A stretch of DNA of 64,000 nt from Fodinibius sediminis (GTDB taxonomy: Bacteria; Bacteroidota; Rhodothermia; Balneolales; Balneolaceae). The notes under the pieces are model-generated. The model was not told where the DNA came from and made no database searches. It was given only the letters and a program-made list of their open reading frames with translations. Below, piece after piece: positions 45,627 to 51,529 of the stretch (position 1 is the stretch's first letter; each line of letters starts with the position of its first letter). A program made the translations under genes and the position numbers. The stretch lies in assembly GCF_900182555.1 (NCBI RefSeq), contig NZ_FXTH01000004.1, positions 186,001 to 250,000 of the forward strand, in the 5' to 3' direction.

Positions 45627-45968
45627 CTACGCCGACCACTCTTCCTGTAAAAGCGACGTCTTGTCCTCTTTTTCCGCCCAGGCCTCTGCTTCGGGCATCT
45701 CATCAGCAGTAATATTGATATGACGGTCAGCCCACTGTTCTGAAAGACGGTCATTTAGCTCAATATAATGCTCCCACTCAAGGGGAATTTCATCATCGGG
45801 ATAGATGGCCTCAACCGGGCATTCAGGTACGCAGGCATCACAGTCTATACACTCATATGGATCGATGGCCAAAAAGTTGGGACCTTCCCGAAAAGCGTCA
45901 ACCGGGCAGACGGAGACACAGTGTGTATATTTACAGTTTATGCATGGTTCGGTAATAACGTATGCCAT
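45627..45968 (-). CDS. fdxA: FdxA-type 7Fe/8Fe ferredoxin
   Basis: The protein has 113 residues. MAYVITEPCINCKYTHCVSVCPVDAF and IDPYECIDCDACVPECPVEAIYPDDEIP match the Azotobacter FdxA type with one [3Fe-4S]/[4Fe-4S] and one [4Fe-4S] cluster. It is the last gene of the leftward sulfate-assimilation operon, 59 bases after the siroheme gene. It is a likely electron donor for the sulfite reductase, as no cysJ flavoprotein is encoded here. That role is inference. Confidence 0.93.
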   Translation of the reverse strand: MAYVITEPCINCKYTHCVSVCPVDAFREGPNFLAIDPYECIDCDACVPECPVEAIYPDDEIPLEWEHYIELNDRLSEQWADRHINITADEMPEAEAWAEKEDKTSLLQEEWSA

Positions 45969-46027: not shown

Positions 46028-46705
46028 TTAGCTCTCCGCGTTACTCTCTTCTTTTAGGGCATCAGCCACTACTTCCTCCCCTACAATAGAAGCCGTCTTG
46101 TGGTATGCTTCTGCTGTCCTGCCCCTGCGAAACAAGTGCAAAACATCCGAATCGATAACTTCGTACCACAGCTTTTTGCGGACCTGAAACTCTGTATGAT
46201 GACACATCATCGGTGCTCTCAGCTTCTGCATAAAAGACAGGAACTCGCCGTACTCGGGCCCAAACTCCTTTTCAAACCGCTGCCTCAGACGTACTGACAG
46301 GGCTGGAGCCGCACCGCTGGTTGATATGGAGATTGTAAGCGGACCTCGCTTAACAATGGATCCAAAGGCGAAATTGGCATGTGGAATATCATCCATCACA
46401 TTTACGAGTATATCCCGTTCCCGGGCTTCCTGGTACACCTTTTTATTGATATTGCCCGTAAAGTCGGCTACAATCGTCATAAATGCACCTTCCAGATCGC
46501 CCTGCTCATACTGACGCGGAATCCAATTGAAACGATTTTCACTGACCCAGTGCTTCATTTTATCCGTCAGACGGGGACTAATTACCGTAAGTTTTGCATT
46601 CCGCTCCAGAAGCTGTTCAGCCTTGCCTTCTGCTTCATGGTTTCCGCCGATCAGGACTGTTCTGCGCTCATGCAGACGCCGCAAATAAATAGGAAATGTT
46701 TCCAT
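46028..46705 (-). CDS. Precorrin-2 dehydrogenase / sirohydrochlorin ferrochelatase
   Basis: From ATG 46705 (METFPIYLRRLHERRTVLIGGNHEAEGKAEQLLE) the protein has 225 residues. This is the Met8/SirC/CysG-N module, which oxidises precorrin-2 with NAD and may insert iron to make siroheme. Asp in NVMDDIPHANFAFGSIVKRGPLTISISTSGAAPALSVRLRQ corresponds to the family's catalytic region. With cobA two genes upstream it supplies siroheme to the sulfite reductase of this operon. An upstream frame extension overlaps cysH and has no homology. Confidence 0.92.
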   Translation of the reverse strand: METFPIYLRRLHERRTVLIGGNHEAEGKAEQLLERNAKLTVISPRLTDKMKHWVSENRFNWIPRQYEQGDLEGAFMTIVADFTGNINKKVYQEARERDILVNVMDDIPHANFAFGSIVKRGPLTISISTSGAAPALSVRLRQRFEKEFGPEYGEFLSFMQKLRAPMMCHHTEFQVRKKLWYEVIDSDVLHLFRRGRTAEAYHKTASIVGEEVVADALKEESNAES

Positions 46706-46728
46706 TGAATTATTATCAGGGTATGGAA

Positions 46729-47478
46729 TTATTCGATATTGTTCTTCTGGGTGGGGTGGTGGATACCGCACTCGGTCTTGTCCAGTCCTTTCCACCGGCC
46801 CCTGCGTTCATCTTTGCTTTCAGCATCAACGACAGAAGTACAGGGGATACAGCCGATACTCGGGTATCCCTCGTCATGAAGTGGATTATAGGGAAGCTCC
46901 TTACTTTCAATATAATTCCAAACCTCCCGCCCGGTCCAGTTCGCCAGGGGATTAATCTTTACCACTTCATTCTCAGGATCCCATTCTACAAACTGGGTAT
47001 TTCGGCGGTCTTTGGACTGCGCCCTCCGAAGCCCGGTGATCCAGGCCTTCTTTTCGGAAAGGTAGTTGCGCAGCGGAAGCACCTTTCGCAAATGGCAGCA
47101 GCGGTTGGGATCTGTTTTCCAGAGCTCCTGTCCAAATCTTTCAGCCTGCTGGCCGAGGGAAAGGTCTGTAGAAACCCTGGTTATGGTCAGGTTGAACCGC
47201 TTTTCAATCCGTTCTTTCAGGGCATAGGTTTCATCAAACAGCAGGTGGGTATCCAGGTAAAAGATGGGGATCTTGATGCCCATCTCCCAAAGCCGGTAAA
47301 TCAGGAACATGCCCGAGGGACCAAAACCGGTGCCCAGCACCATATCTGTACCGAAGGTGTGATACCCCCAAAAAAGAACCTGGCTTGGGCCCGCCGCTTC
47401 AAGCTCGCTGTTCAAACGATCCAAAAAATCGTCGGTTAGCTTCTGGTTGAAAATGTTCTGATCTTCATACTGCATCAT
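46729..47478 (-). CDS. cysH: Adenylyl-sulfate (APS) reductase, iron-sulfur type
   Basis: The protein has 249 residues. The PP-loop-type core is followed by two Cys pairs, Cys127-Cys128 (CCHLRKVLPL) and Cys210/Cys213 (GCIPCT), which bind [4Fe-4S] and mark APS rather than PAPS reductases. Catalytic Cys237 is in ECGIH. It reduces APS to sulfite with thioredoxin. The gene lies nine bases after cobA. ATP sulfurylase is not in this window and must be elsewhere. Confidence 0.94.
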   Translation of the reverse strand: MMQYEDQNIFNQKLTDDFLDRLNSELEAAGPSQVLFWGYHTFGTDMVLGTGFGPSGMFLIYRLWEMGIKIPIFYLDTHLLFDETYALKERIEKRFNLTITRVSTDLSLGQQAERFGQELWKTDPNRCCHLRKVLPLRNYLSEKKAWITGLRRAQSKDRRNTQFVEWDPENEVVKINPLANWTGREVWNYIESKELPYNPLHDEGYPSIGCIPCTSVVDAESKDERRGRWKGLDKTECGIHHPTQKNNIE

Positions 47479-47487
47479 AACAAGGGT

Positions 47488-48303
47488 TTAGCCGGCAAAT
47501 TGCTTGTGTAACCTGTCGTTGGAAATGCCGTTATTAATAATGCTGTTCTCCGCATGGAACCAGGCCAACTGTTTGCTTTTTGAAGCTAATGTTCCAATCA
47601 CGATGGTACCCGGCGGAGCCAGCAGTTCCGTCTGCTCTGCTATTGTTTCAAGGGTGCCCACAACCACCCGCTGCGAAGCGTAGGTCGCCTTTTCTATGAC
47701 CCCGACCGGCGTATTGGCATCTCTGCCATGCTCTATCAGCATGGCCGCTATCTGTGCAAGGCGGCTCATGCCCATAAGCACTACCAGGGTGTCGGTATGC
47801 ACCAGGTGTTCCCAGTTGGCAAAGGCATCCGTATTTCTAATCGTATGTCCCGTAACAACGGTGAACGATCGAGCCTCTCTGCGATACGTTACCGGGATGC
47901 CGGCAAAAGCCGGGGCCGCCAGCGCACTGCTGATACCCGGAACCACTTCGAAGGGGACATGCGCTGTGCGCAGGGCCTCACATTCTTCCCCCCCACGGCC
48001 AAACACGAAGGGATCACCTCCCTTGAGCCGTACGACGACCTTGCCTGACCGGGCCTTGGTAACAAGAATATGATTAATCTGTTGCTGAGACACCGAGGGT
48101 TTATCGGGTCGTTTGCCGACATACAGGTGCTCCGACTGCTCTGAGCTCATCGACAGCAGCGCAGGATTTGCCAGACGGTCATAGACGATGACATCGGCTT
48201 CTTTTAACATCTTCGCTCCCTTCACGGTTATCAATTCCGGATCGCCCGGACCGGCACCAACAAGATATACTTTGCCATAGCGAGGGTAGGATTGGGTTTT
48301 CAT
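47488..48303 (-). CDS. cobA: Uroporphyrinogen-III C-methyltransferase
   Basis: The protein has 271 residues. It methylates uroporphyrinogen III with SAM to precorrin-2, the first siroheme step. VYLVGAGPGDPELITVKGAKMLKEADVIVYDRLANP, RLKGGDPFVFGRGGEECEAL, VPGISSALAAPAFAGIPVTYRREARSFTVVTGH and PVGVIEKATYASQRVVVGTL are SUMT signatures. It sits between sir and cysH in the same operon. Confidence 0.95.
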   Translation of the reverse strand: MKTQSYPRYGKVYLVGAGPGDPELITVKGAKMLKEADVIVYDRLANPALLSMSSEQSEHLYVGKRPDKPSVSQQQINHILVTKARSGKVVVRLKGGDPFVFGRGGEECEALRTAHVPFEVVPGISSALAAPAFAGIPVTYRREARSFTVVTGHTIRNTDAFANWEHLVHTDTLVVLMGMSRLAQIAAMLIEHGRDANTPVGVIEKATYASQRVVVGTLETIAEQTELLAPPGTIVIGTLASKSKQLAWFHAENSIINNGISNDRLHKQFAG

Positions 48304-48320: not shown

Positions 48321-50012
48321 TTATGCGGATATTAGTTCTGTATCTTCGACATCAACCCGGTTCCAGAAGTCACCGAAGGATTCCCCCTCCTCCCTGTTCT
48401 TACTGAAATATGACAGCAGGGGAGTCACTTCATCAACCAGGTTTTCACGCGCAACCAAATCCTTGTACTTTCGGTTGAGCCGTGTACCCGACGGGTCTCC
48501 CCCAATGAAAATGGTGTATTTGTCAAGGGATCGGCCTACAAAGCCAAGGTCAGCGACATAGGGTCGCGAACAACCATTGGGACAGCCCGTCATCCGCACG
48601 GATAACTTCTCGTCTTCAAGTCCAAACTCATGGAGTACCTCATCGAGATCCCGGATGATATCCGGAAACACCCGTTCGGATTCCGTGATTGCCAGCCCGC
48701 AGGTCGGCAGCGCAGGGCAGGCCATCGAGTATTTTATCGCATTGGAAAGCTCATCATCCAGCAGCACACCGTGCCGATTAAATGCTTTTTCTATGCCGGC
48801 TTTGTCATTTGCTGCAATATCTGTGAGGATCACATTGTGATTGGGTGTGAGCCGGACTCCGGTTTCATAGCGTTCGACAACCGTCCGCAGCGCCGTCTTG
48901 AGCTGGAGTTCCCCCTCATCCTTGATACGGCCATTTTCAACCGAAAGCCCCAGGAACCACTTCCCGTTGGACTGCCTGTGCCAGCCGAGATAGAGATCCA
49001 GCTCAAAATCGGGCAAGGCCCGGAAAGCCTCCAATTCATATCCAAGACGTGCCACGAGCTCCTTCCGGAACTTATCCAGTCCCCACTCGTGAATCAGGTA
49101 TTTCATCCGGGCCTGTTTACGGTTCTTCCTGTTCCCATAGTCACGCTGTATCTCGATGATCGCCTTCACCACCTCAACCACTTTCTCCCTGGATATATAC
49201 CCGAGATCGTCGCCCAGCCGCGGGAACGTATGCTCCTTGCGATGGTGCATGCCCATGCCTCCCCCAACAATGACGTTGAATCCTTCGATTTCATTGTCAT
49301 CATCAAAGAGGGCCACCAGCCCGATATCCTGGGTATATACATCAATACTGTTGTCTTTGGGCAGGGCTATGCCCACCTTGAACTTGCGGGGCAGATAACT
49401 GGGTCCGTACAGCGGTTCACGATTGGTAACCTGCTCTTTACCTGAGAAGACCTTGTCACCGTTGAGCCACACCTCGTGGTAGGCTTTCGTGGCCGGCAGC
49501 AGGATATCAGAAAGCCTGTCTGCAAAATCCTGCACCTTTGCCTGACGGCCGTCAATATCAGGTGCCGGAGTGGCCATGACGTTGCGTACAATATCACCGC
49601 AGGCCCCGAGTGTGGTAATCAGCGACCGGTTGATTTCCTGCAGTGTCGTTTTGAGCTTTTCTTTAATAACACCATGCAGCTGAAAAGCCTGCCGTGTCGT
49701 TACCCGCAGCGTCTGATCAGCATATTCATCCGCTATTTCATCAATAGCCAGGTATTGATGCGGCGTCATCTTACCACCGGGCAACCGGCCGCGGATCATA
49801 AAAATATAGTGGCGGTCACGCCCTTCCCGAAGATCTCGGTCATCCTGCTGATAGGTACCGTGAAATTTCAGCACCTGGATGGCATCCTTGCTGAAGTGGG
49901 AAGCATCATTTCCCACTTCATGCGCAAGGGGACCACGCAAGTACTCACTATTCTCCTTGATAACCTCTATTTTACTTTTTGTTCGCTTCCGTTGAGAACC
50001 CATGAGGTGCAT
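48321..50012 (-). CDS. sir: Assimilatory sulfite reductase, siroheme/[4Fe-4S] hemoprotein
   Basis: The protein has 563 residues (ATG at 50012; 50003 also possible). It reduces sulfite to sulfide by six electrons. Cluster cysteines lie in ACPALPTCGLAITESERVFPD and RMTGCPNGCSRPYVADLGFVG. Siroheme-binding sequence includes RVTTRQAFQLHGVIKEKL and ACGDIVRNVMATP. There is no cysJ, and a ferredoxin gene ends the operon, so a ferredoxin-dependent enzyme is likely, though CysI cannot be excluded from sequence alone. Confidence 0.95.
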   Translation of the reverse strand: MHLMGSQRKRTKSKIEVIKENSEYLRGPLAHEVGNDASHFSKDAIQVLKFHGTYQQDDRDLREGRDRHYIFMIRGRLPGGKMTPHQYLAIDEIADEYADQTLRVTTRQAFQLHGVIKEKLKTTLQEINRSLITTLGACGDIVRNVMATPAPDIDGRQAKVQDFADRLSDILLPATKAYHEVWLNGDKVFSGKEQVTNREPLYGPSYLPRKFKVGIALPKDNSIDVYTQDIGLVALFDDDNEIEGFNVIVGGGMGMHHRKEHTFPRLGDDLGYISREKVVEVVKAIIEIQRDYGNRKNRKQARMKYLIHEWGLDKFRKELVARLGYELEAFRALPDFELDLYLGWHRQSNGKWFLGLSVENGRIKDEGELQLKTALRTVVERYETGVRLTPNHNVILTDIAANDKAGIEKAFNRHGVLLDDELSNAIKYSMACPALPTCGLAITESERVFPDIIRDLDEVLHEFGLEDEKLSVRMTGCPNGCSRPYVADLGFVGRSLDKYTIFIGGDPSGTRLNRKYKDLVARENLVDEVTPLLSYFSKNREEGESFGDFWNRVDVEDTELISA

Positions 50013-50033: not shown

Positions 50034-50876
50034 TTATCGTTCGATGGGAGCATCGATCAAATTACCCCATTCCGTCCACGATCCGTCATAATTACGCACA
50101 CTCGGATATTCGAGCAGTTCATTGAGCACAAACCAGGAATGAGCTGACCGTTCGCCGATGCGGCAGTAGGAGATGACATCCTTGTCGGGCGTAATCCCTT
50201 CGTTCTCGTATATTGCTTTCAGTTCTTCCTTGCTTTTAAAGGTTCCGTCCTCATTTACGGCTCTGGACCACGGAATATTGGAAGCCCCTGGGATGTGGCC
50301 TGGACGCTGCGACAGTTCGTTGAGACCGGGAGGAGCCAAAATTTTTCCGGTGAACTCATCCGGTGACCGAACATCTACGAGACCGAAGTCTGCATCATTC
50401 AAACGCTCTTGAATATCATCGCGGAACGCACGGTATTGCTGTTTCACCTCGGATATGGTATAATCCGTTTTTTCATAATCCGGGGTCTCGGTTGTTAGCG
50501 CACGCCCTTCCGCTTCCCACTTCCTGCGACCTCCATCCAGTATTTTGACTTTCTCATGGCCGTAGTATTTCAACAGCCAATAGGCCCAGGCTGCAAACCA
50601 ATTGTTGTTATCGCCGTACAGCACAACAGTGGTATCTTCGCTAATGCCGGATTCCTGCAGAAGGGTTTCGAAATCATCCTTTGTAACAATGGTTCTGCGT
50701 AGCTGATCCTGGAGCTGCGTCTTCCAGTTCCAGCCCACAGCACCCGGAAGATGTCCGGAGTCATAGGATTCGGTGTCTACATCAACTTCGACAAAGCGGA
50801 CCTGTTCATCCTGTAGATGATTCACTGCCCAGTCGGTGGTAGCAAGTACTTTTTTGTTTGTTAATACGTCAGACAT
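50034..50876 (-). CDS. sseA: Thiosulfate/3-mercaptopyruvate sulfurtransferase, two rhodanese domains
   Basis: From ATG 50876 (MSDVLTNKKVLATTDW) the protein has 280 residues. Two rhodanese domains are seen: an inactive N-terminal one (FVEVDVDTESYDSGHLPGAVGWNWKTQLQD) and a C-terminal one with the nucleophile Cys in VISYCRIGERSAHSWFVL. The active-site loop CRIGERS is closer to thiosulfate than mercaptopyruvate enzymes. It is the first gene behind the Cys-rich leader and attenuator and may pass sulfane sulfur to the CysO system across the divergent promoter. Confidence 0.93.
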   Translation of the reverse strand: MSDVLTNKKVLATTDWAVNHLQDEQVRFVEVDVDTESYDSGHLPGAVGWNWKTQLQDQLRRTIVTKDDFETLLQESGISEDTTVVLYGDNNNWFAAWAYWLLKYYGHEKVKILDGGRRKWEAEGRALTTETPDYEKTDYTISEVKQQYRAFRDDIQERLNDADFGLVDVRSPDEFTGKILAPPGLNELSQRPGHIPGASNIPWSRAVNEDGTFKSKEELKAIYENEGITPDKDVISYCRIGERSAHSWFVLNELLEYPSVRNYDGSWTEWGNLIDAPIER

Positions 50877-50970
50877 AATGGTTGATTTTGCTTTGTGTTT
50901 TAGGGTTAAAATGCTGTAGAATCTCACAAAGCCCAGCTGACGCAGATAGGTAGGTCTGTTTCATACAATC

Positions 50971-51009
50971 AGAAAAGCCCACCACCTGCGACAGGTAGTG
51001 GGCTTTTCT
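50971..51009 (-). terminator. Attenuator terminator of the sulfate-assimilation operon
   Basis: On the minus strand, arms AGAAAAGCCCACTACCTG and CAGGTGGTGGGCTTTTCT pair over a three-base TCG loop. They form an 18-bp stem with a single U-G pair that would be a C/A mismatch on the other strand. The stem ends in CTTTTCT. No gene ends here; it lies in the 5' leader of sseA, 95 bases before its start. This is the hallmark of an attenuator rather than a gene-end terminator. Confidence 0.85.
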
Positions 51010-51026
51010 GATCAATTTCTATAGAA

Positions 51027-51098
51027 TCATTTTGATATATCAGCTCCACTACCCTGCAAGGCATCCGTACAGCAACACATACACATGACTGAAGCCAT
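51027..51098 (-). CDS. Cys-rich leader peptide of the sulfate-assimilation operon
   Basis: ATG 51098 opens a 23-codon frame starting MASVMCMCCCTDALQGSGAD and ending TGA. It has four Cys codons in five positions (TGT ATG TGT TGC TGT). The stop lies 17 bases before the terminator hairpin. The frame, Cys cluster, hairpin and downstream cysteine-supply genes together fit a cysteine-sensing leader. No known protein is recognised. Confidence 0.85.
   Translation of the reverse strand: MASVMCMCCCTDALQGSGADISK
51046..51053 (-). promoter_or_regulatory. Candidate antiterminator arm inside the Cys leader
   Basis: GGTAGTGG (leader codons 16-18) is complementary to CCACTACC in the 5' arm of the terminator (50994-51001). 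Pairing would prevent the terminator. The arm begins 15 bases after the last Cys codon, so a ribosome stalled on the Cys run would leave it free. Confidence 0.7.
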
Positions 51099-51310
51099 CG
51101 CAAAAACGGTGTGGATTTGATTGAGTAAATTCATCAAAATAACGTTCAAAGTGATTAATATTCGCGCTATATCGTCAACGCATTTTCAGGATAGAAAGTA
51201 ATATTATTGAAGTCAACTCTTTTTTTAAAAAATTTTCATCTACCAAAAAAAGCTTTTACAGAAGCTAGCAGCATGTTTTTTCAGGTCTTTATTACCTGTC
51301 TGCCGGCGAT

Positions 51311-51336
51311 CTAAATCCAATAGAAATTGGATTTAG
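51311..51336. promoter_or_regulatory. Perfect 11-bp inverted repeat, candidate shared operator
   Basis: Arms CTAAATCCAAT and ATTGGATTTAG flank AGAA. The repeat lies in the AT-rich space between the two divergent Cys leaders, about 210 bases from one and 70 from the other. A T-run is on the wrong side for a terminator in either direction. A dimeric regulator controlling both operons is the simplest reading. Confidence 0.55.
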
Positions 51337-51407: not shown

Positions 51408-51488
51408 TTGGCAACAACACCTCACATATCATTCCATTCCTGCCTCAAGCACTTTTGCTGTGCGTGTTGTTGCTGTTGCTGTAGCTAG
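51408..51488 (+). CDS. Cys-rich leader peptide of the cysM-CysO operon
   Basis: A TTG at 51408 opens a 26-codon frame ending CLKHFCCACCCCCCS then TAG. Nine residues are Cys, six of them consecutive (TGT TGT TGC TGT TGC TGT). There is no ATG in the open frame (from 51357), so TTG is the likely start. It ends 116 bases before cysM. Such a run is most unlikely by chance in this position. GCAACAACAC (51411-51420) can pair with GTGTTGTTGC (51464-51473) in the Cys-codon run. Confidence 0.8.
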   Translation: MATTPHISFHSCLKHFCCACCCCCCS

Positions 51489-51529
51489 GTATTACCGGCT
51501 GTAAACCTTCTTTTCTCTTCCGGTAATAC
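51489..51529 (+). promoter_or_regulatory. Hairpin directly after the rightward Cys leader
   Basis: GTATTACCGG and CCGGTAATAC form a perfect 10-bp stem with a 21-base loop, starting on the base after the leader's stop codon. No T-run follows. GCCAACC (51532-51538) next to it can pair with GGTTGGC (51406-51412) over the leader start. Translational control is more likely than termination; the mechanism is unresolved. Confidence 0.6.

Follow-up and report, generated by a model that had tools for sequence, protein, structure and literature searches.

The window, by which we mean the whole stretch of 64,000 nucleotides that was analysed, derives from a 4.43-Mb draft genome of Fodinibius sediminis, in the family Balneolaceae (contig NZ_FXTH01000004.1, 186001-250000), and carries on its minus strand a sulfate-assimilation operon beginning with sseA. 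The features of this operon and of the leader that precedes it are given below, each with what it rests on.

51188..51216, minus strand: predicted sigma-70-like promoter, TTGACT-17-TATCCT (9 of 12 consensus matches)
51027..51134, minus strand: leader ORF of 35 codons, MNLLNQIHTVFAMASVMCMCCCTDALQGSGADISK (start codon invariant in an alignment of 20 leaders)
51101..51115, minus strand: arm 1, candidate anti-antiterminator, pairing with arm 2 and its flanks (duplex search)
51069..51086, minus strand: candidate sensing block ATG TGT ATG TGT TGC TGT, Met Cys Met Cys Cys Cys (sequence)
51046..51053, minus strand: arm 2, GGTAGTGG, 5' strand of the putative antiterminator (pairs with arm 3 in 98.8% of cells, 20 leaders)
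50994..51001, minus strand: arm 3, CCACTACC, common to the putative antiterminator and terminator (complement of arm 2)
50967..51013, minus strand: predicted intrinsic terminator hairpin, arms 3:4, 22 bp, loop UCG, T-rich tract CTTTTCTGATT (folding and covariation)
50925-50932 and 50890-50897, minus strand: inverted repeat GCTTTGTG / CACAAAGC, just 5' of sseA (sequence)
50034..50876, minus strand: sseA, two-rhodanese sulfurtransferase, first gene of the operon (Pfam/NCBIfam)
48321..50012, minus strand: sir/cysI, assimilatory sulfite reductase (Pfam/NCBIfam)
47488..48303, minus strand: cobA, uroporphyrinogen-III C-methyltransferase (Pfam/NCBIfam)
46729..47478, minus strand: cysH, PAPS/APS reductase (Pfam/NCBIfam)
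46028..46795, minus strand: siroheme synthase N-terminal-type gene, listed from a GTG that overlaps cysH, the true start probably lying further in (Pfam/NCBIfam)
45627..45968, minus strand: fdxA-type ferredoxin (Pfam/NCBIfam)

Judging from the promoter-like site, the transcript is expected to begin at about 51181. The earlier note on this DNA, which described a complete cysteine-responsive attenuator here, had named a transcript start downstream of 50971 as one outcome that would speak against it; what was found instead is a putative promoter-like site upstream of the leader. The best-scoring promoter-like pair occupies a comparable position in 15 of the 20 sseA leaders of relatives and is misplaced or weak in the remaining five (L015, L016, L017, L019 and L022). 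A palindromic motif centred on AAGCGCTT was also seen by eye upstream of the leader in L006-L008, L015-L017, L019, L021 and L022; it reads AAAAGCGCTTTT in several of them and is perhaps a transcription-factor site.

The 23-codon frame with a Cys cluster that had been proposed as the leader ORF is present, but its start is better placed at 51134 than at 51098 because the ATG there is invariant in the 20-leader alignment; the ORF then has 35 codons, the last 23 of which make up the frame proposed earlier. An 8-base arm complementary to the 5' side of the following hairpin was found on the minus strand exactly where it had been reported, with its partner at 51001-50994, and the distance from the last Cys codon to this arm, given earlier as about 15 bases, measured 15 nt. 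The stop codon of the leader ORF ends 19 nt beyond arm 2. The hairpin itself had been described as an 18-bp stem with a CTTTTCT end. A strong hairpin is indeed present, but its uninterrupted stem has 22 bp, closed by a UCG loop, and the T-rich tract, which is interrupted (TTTTCT), lies within the 3' arm. Its folding energy (51013-50967) is -38.2 kcal/mol compared with -12.0 +/- 2.7 for shuffled sequences (z -9.8; 0 of 200 shuffles equally stable), and the larger leader fold is likewise more stable than its shuffles (z -6.6; 0 of 200). These features point to an intrinsic terminator between the leader ORF and the first gene. In agreement with the earlier observation that no gene ends at the hairpin, no minus-strand ORF of at least 60 aa terminates in the leader. 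Separately, between the terminator and the start of sseA, GCTTTGTG and CACAAAG of the inverted repeat are both exact in 13 of 20 leaders, and the GGGCTTT of this repeat might also compete for the terminator arm AAAGCCC.

Distribution of the leader and covariation of its helices

Relatives had been singled out as the place to look for conserved Cys codons and arm complementarity upstream of sseA and sir, and both are kept there, with compensatory changes. A search with SseA covered 195 genomes, 123 of which had a match of any strength; a close orthologue (E <= 1.6e-150) is present in 20 Balneolaceae genomes as 21 gene copies. A Cys/Met ORF, the arm and the hairpin precede sseA in all 20 genomes and in 20 of the 21 copies. 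Gracilimonas mengyeensis (L010, L035) is among the carriers. The same device stands ahead of sir in G079 and of cobA in G022, and was found in 22 of the 92 Balneolaceae genomes searched. In a sister family of the same order it precedes a CitMHS/SLC13-type permease gene in 10 genomes (G093, G096, G104, G107, G109, G111, G117, G119, G122 and G123), the identity of the permease being matched by Pfam in 10 of 10. The genes after the permease are, by Pfam, of CysD type and CysNC type, a rhodanese and a sulfur transporter in G123; those in the other sister-family genomes were judged by eye where read. Second copies of the leader lie before cobA in G109 and before sir in G122. Altogether, 34 leaders were found; they come from 32 genomes in two families, out of 128 genomes of the order searched, and all 34 precede sulfur-assimilation genes (sseA, sir, cobA or the CitMHS/SLC13-type permease operon). 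Since the device occurs before sir, cobA and the permease as well as before sseA, it tracks function and not a single gene.

The sister-family leaders were found with a peptide profile. G104 and G107 were first found by reading and then added to the profile, so that their later recovery is by construction, and profile A6 missed G051, a known positive, so that the search was not exhaustive. A covariance model of the leader (R1) gave 22 Balneolaceae matches above 59 bits, all of them true leaders. The weaker matches that were inspected proved to be trpE leaders or ordinary terminators, and the best match outside the order (L145 in G485, 53.7 bits) has no Cys ORF. When the peptide profile was run on 395 genomes of the phylum, 11 loci were listed outside the family; none of the nine inspected (L229-L237) was convincing, as they look like coding, antisense or chance matches, and L238 and L239 were left out. 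This leader is absent from the ten class-level sseA loci (L023-L032), and a search of the window's own genome with the single peptide returned one further weak match (E 0.53). Other Cys-rich ORFs lie ahead of sseA in Salinibacter-type genomes: a APVCLCSCLCGMSASCRG-like ORF in L029, L031, L032 and L251, about 420-300 nt before sseA and plainly followed at two of the four loci by a GGCTCC-C-GGAGCC-TTTT hairpin, and a GCCCLMACCRC ORF in L252 and L253, starting 378 nt before sseA. Neither type was found in L030/L257, which are from one genome. These sequences, which are GC-rich and few in number, may be additional cysteine leaders belonging to a more remote group within the class.

Pairing between arms 2 and 3 was scored in the alignment of 20 leaders, in which 98.8% of cells of the 2:3 helix are paired and 3 of the 8 pairs show double changes in some leader; sliding one strand as a control lowers pairing to 25-59%. 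For the core of the 3:4 terminator the paired share is 93.8% of cells, compared with 37-57% in slid controls, and 5 of its 16 pairs are double-changed. For both helices, none of 500 shuffles of the 3' letters matched the observed paired percentage or the covariation score, a control that does not remove the relatedness of the leaders. The number of double-changed pairs was reached by 17 of 500 shuffles for 2:3 and by 2 of 500 for 3:4. One of the five covariation measures, further pair types, was unexceptional, being reached by 120 (2:3) and 102 (3:4) of 500 shuffles. Mismatches in the 2:3 helix are limited to one each in L012, L020 and L190. In the sister-family genome G117, both arms are replaced (GGAGAGTG/CGCTCTCC) and still pair, next to a terminator whose sequence is also new. 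As the partner of arm 2 is the terminator's own 5' arm, the putative antiterminator would exclude the terminator. Moreover, arm 2 is translated as Gly-Ser-Gly or similar in most leaders and lies in a Val-Val frame in L006-L008 and L010; since it is kept in two reading frames, selection appears to act on the RNA rather than on the peptide.

Automatic procedures were less reliable than the alignment in locating these elements. A first pass of hairpin finding misplaced the terminator in L005, L010, L019, L020 and L022, and a later one in L020, L188, L191 and L194, because of mismatches or rival repeats; counts were therefore taken from the 20-leader alignment. Automatic choice of the arm differed from the aligned arm in L020 (one mismatch) and lay one base off in L009, L015 and L016. 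RNAalifold of the aligned leaders recovered the terminator and nothing else, and a T-tract with at least 6 T is present in 12 of the 20.

These data bear on the possibility that there is no switch at all and that the locus carries a plain constitutive terminator or the gene of a short functional Cys-rich protein. The hairpin by itself scores as terminator-like, and, going by weak model matches that were partly inspected, these genomes commonly contain generic terminators of the GCCC type. The one exceptional sseA copy, the second in G007 (80% identical; L192), retains the arms and the hairpin without the ORF. However, no minus-strand ORF of at least 60 aa ends upstream of the hairpin, arm 2 shows compensatory changes and is kept in either of two frames, and the peptide is poorly conserved outside its Cys/Met block. 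We regard this explanation as extremely improbable, the least credible of those weighed here. The G007 copy lacks a Cys/Met ORF but keeps, 330 nt 5' of the gene, arm 2 (GATAGTGG), its partner (CCCACTATC) and the hairpin, and looks like a natural sensor-less variant, a leader having lost its sensor.

Cysteine and methionine codons ahead of arm 2

All 34 leaders have an ORF with a cluster of codons for sulfur amino acids, the products of the operon that it would regulate. The block, taken as the codons whose A-site position falls 36 to 10 nt before arm 2, amounts to 306 codons, of which 133 are Cys and 104 Met, a combined share of 237/306 (77%), compared with 67/481 (14%; 25 Cys, 42 Met) upstream of the block and 61/356 (17%; 34 Cys, 27 Met) from arm 2 onward. 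Background use in the window is 1.0% Cys and 1.7% Met over eleven genes. Resolved by position in 29 leaders, the combined share is 94% at -27..-19, 74% at -18..-10 and 14% at -9..-1, so that the block ends about 10 nt ahead of arm 2. Ribosomes have a footprint reaching about 12 nt ahead of the first base of the A-site; on this assumption, a ribosome stalled at the end of the block would have its leading edge just short of arm 2. The edge of the block before arm 2 is the best evidence that stalling, and not the peptide, would matter. The sister-family leaders L185, L186, L187, L189, L193, L245, L246 and L247 carry Cys/Met codons past arm 2 as well (GSGCCMC-type ends). A Cys stall past arm 2 would mask that arm and favour termination, which counts against the attenuator reading.

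While the attenuator reading of the earlier note is supported, its label 'cysteine-responsive' probably says too little, given that the enrichment of Met codons nearly equals that of Cys codons. Leaving Cys codons aside, Met accounts for 60% of the block (104/173) but only 9% of the upstream region (42/456), and we therefore propose that both sulfur amino acids are sensed, a proposal to which we give an even chance. The simpler view is that the attenuator answers to cysteine alone and that the Met codons are tolerated fillers or a by-product of slippage in TGTATG repeats. At least one adjacent pair of Cys codons is found in 33 of the 34 leader peptides (all but L190), and the block in the window has 4 Cys and 2 Met codons, which speaks for this view. 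The excess of Met over the upstream region, however, recurs in leaders with differing patterns, and the second leaders of the sister family, L248 and L249, have the block MSMCCM with 2 Cys. We consider sensing of cysteine alone a serious alternative, though one that falls somewhat short of even odds.

The peptide could also act in its own right, as a Cys/Met-rich nascent chain that binds a thiophilic metal such as Cu(I), or senses redox state, and thereby arrests the ribosome. Clusters of Cys and Met are typical soft-metal ligands. A copper-responsive uORF has been reported, in the accessible part of PMC9426467, and provides a precedent. Against this, no fixed Cys spacing was seen by eye across the 34 peptides, the downstream genes that were tested belong to sulfur assimilation, and the distance from block to arm 2 fits stalling at the level of codons. 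A metal- or redox-sensing peptide is accordingly very unlikely.

Ribosome position in a folding model and the proposed mechanism

Arm 1 was analysed as the possible partner that would free arm 3 for termination. In many leaders a stretch 5' of the block (about 51115-51101 in the window) is complementary to arm 2 and its flanks. For single leaders the 1:2 duplex is not distinguished from shuffles at p 0.05 in 13 of 20 cases, including the window leader (p 0.15). When arms were swapped between leaders, using one leader per clade (29 leaders, 10 clades, drawn by hand), own arms paired at -16.2 kcal/mol and swapped arms at -12.9, and 3 of 6000 permutations were as good as the own arms; in L007, L008 and L016 the swapped arms pair better on average. 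The 1:2 helix is absent from the RNAalifold consensus of the leader. Fisher values calculated for arm 1, like binomial values for the codons, take no account of relatedness between the sequences and should not be read as probabilities. Arm 1 is a likely candidate for an anti-antiterminator that would fit the classical 1:2 hairpin, and is a weaker element than the other parts.

We modelled the effect of ribosome position by equilibrium folding of transcripts ending before arm 4, with the ribosome represented as a mask, in 29 leaders. A ribosome on arm 2 abolishes the 2:3 helix in this model (0.00-0.04), upstream stalls mostly permit it, and 1:2 is able to form around the ribosome. Mean antiterminator formation was 0.54 for stalls at Cys codons, 0.61 at Met codons and 0.58 at others, so that this masked-ribosome model did not by itself favour Cys codons over other stall sites in these 29 leaders; a Cys stall in L005-L007 gave almost no antiterminator (0.00-0.01). 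The free truncated RNA of the window leader already favours 2:3 (0.98) over 1:2 (0.01). The earlier caveat that a ribosome at the stop codon may not fully cover the arm holds for the window leader, because 2:3 remains at 0.87 there; the corresponding value is at most 0.12 in 15 of the 29 leaders. Given these stop-codon values, termination under replete conditions may depend on the ribosome in motion, on 1:2 pairing once the ribosome has released, or on kinetics. Kinetics are not captured by equilibrium folding.

Taken from its sequence features, the leader is very probably a ribosome-mediated transcription attenuator of the trp/his type for sulfate assimilation. In the mechanism that we propose, RNA polymerase would start near 51181 and a ribosome would begin the leader ORF at 51134. 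When Cys (or Met) is scarce, the ribosome would stall in the Met-Cys-Met-Cys-Cys-Cys block with its leading edge short of arm 2, GGTAGTGG would pair with CCACTACC once the latter is made, no terminator would form and the operon would be read. When both amino acids are ample, the ribosome would cover arm 2, or release so that arm 2 re-pairs with arm 1, and arm 3 would then pair with arm 4, ending transcription near 50970. Such a switch would tie sulfate assimilation to charged tRNA-Cys and, in our view, to charged tRNA-Met.

Known leaders and the divergent cysM operon

The Balneolota leader resembles trp/his-type attenuators in having a leader ORF with a run of end-product codons ahead of a biosynthetic operon, together with a putative antiterminator and intrinsic terminator that are mutually exclusive and a candidate 1:2 hairpin. 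It differs in its phylum, in its combination of Cys and Met codons and in its sulfate-assimilation operon, as well as in the stop codon of the window leader, which lies beyond arm 2, so that a ribosome there may not mask that arm. Against Rfam at curated scores, the whole window contains no match to a cis-regulatory family, only a tRNA; the best score in the leader region was for Thr_leader (27.9 bits, cutoff 55). Seven further loci that surfaced as weak matches of the leader covariance model (L137, L138, L140, L142, L144, L146 and L147) are Trp leaders of Balneolaceae, all seven with a WWWP ORF and a terminator. The gene that follows is of trpE type by Pfam in L137, L138 and L147 and by eye in the other four. 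These leaders occur in the same family and have the same build, with a GCCC/ACCC-type stem in the terminator, and differ in their Trp codons and in the trpE downstream. The presence of Trp attenuator-like leaders in the same family supports this kind of mechanism there.

Mycobacterial polycysteine leader ORFs are reportedly the subject of an experimental paper, Canestrari 2020. The available portion of PMC1262725 describes polycysteine leader ORFs in mycobacterial cys operons with no conserved terminator hairpin and suggests Rho-dependent termination. The likeness lies in runs of Cys codons in a leader ORF ahead of cysteine/sulfur genes (same portion of PMC1262725); the sseA-side leader, in contrast, has a strong hairpin and T-tract. 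The uORFC-8-2 motif, as set out in the accessible part of PMC8632094, is a predicted cysS leader found exclusively in Rhodobacterales, with two tandem Cys codons. It is alike in combining a uORF with adjacent Cys codons, hairpins, an intrinsic terminator and proposed stalling at Cys codons (PMC8632094, same part). It differs, by its description there and not by its sequence, in preceding cysS only and in having no Met block described (PMC8632094), whereas the first genes behind the Balneolota leaders are sseA, sir, cobA or the permease gene. Since cysS and mycobacterial Cys leaders are known, this kind of device is already known. A search for 'Balneolaceae' with 'attenuator' returned no paper, and no precedent for a mixed Cys/Met block, for pathway-wide use in one order or for a Balneolota host was found in the literature searched, from which most subscription papers were missing.

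Divergent from the sseA operon, the plus strand encodes cysM, a JAB/desampylase-like protein, a ThiS/SAMP-like carrier and a MoeB/MoeZ-like protein (Pfam/NCBIfam). Ahead of this operon we observed a second Cys-rich leader ORF (51408-51488, plus strand, TTG start, LATTPHISFHSCLKHFCCACCCCCCS), directly followed by a hairpin TATTACCGG/CCGGTAATA with arms at 51490-51498 and 51520-51528, which is without a T-tract and is followed by a G-poor stretch. In 9 genomes of the genus, the cysM-side leader has a run of 5-6 Cys and then Ser or Arg at the end, one of the runs being broken by Tyr. Eight of these have cysM divergent from the sseA operon; the ninth, G008, has the cysM-side polycysteine leader and no close sseA was found in it. 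L204 (G004) was rejected as a chance match. The plus-strand leader is like the mycobacterial polycysteine leaders, more so than the sseA-side leader is, and Rho-dependent termination there would be a guess. An inverted repeat CTAAATCCAAT-AGAA-ATTGGATTTAG at 51311-51336, between the sseA-side promoter and the cysM-side leader, is followed by no T-tract on either strand. With the two leaders lying back to back, one intergenic region would hold two different cysteine-sensing leaders. The fullest form of our proposal is a single attenuator reading both sulfur amino acids, in which a Cys or Met stall would turn on sulfate uptake, activation and reduction, placed, in the window's genus, back to back with a terminator-less polycysteine leader before a CysM-JAB-CysO-MoeZ-type cysteine operon; we are evenly divided between accepting and doubting it.

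Descriptions of a cysteine attenuator that has all its parts seem to be rare, the cases met in the accessible parts of the reports being one predicted before cysS and the mycobacterial ones without a terminator. Here two families keep the full set, ahead of several operons of a single pathway, and the peptide profile and covariance model can aid annotation of the sulfur regulon of the order. The mixed Cys/Met block yields a testable claim, namely that one RNA switch may integrate both sulfur amino acids. Most likely, the device would let the operon be read only when sulfur amino acids run short.
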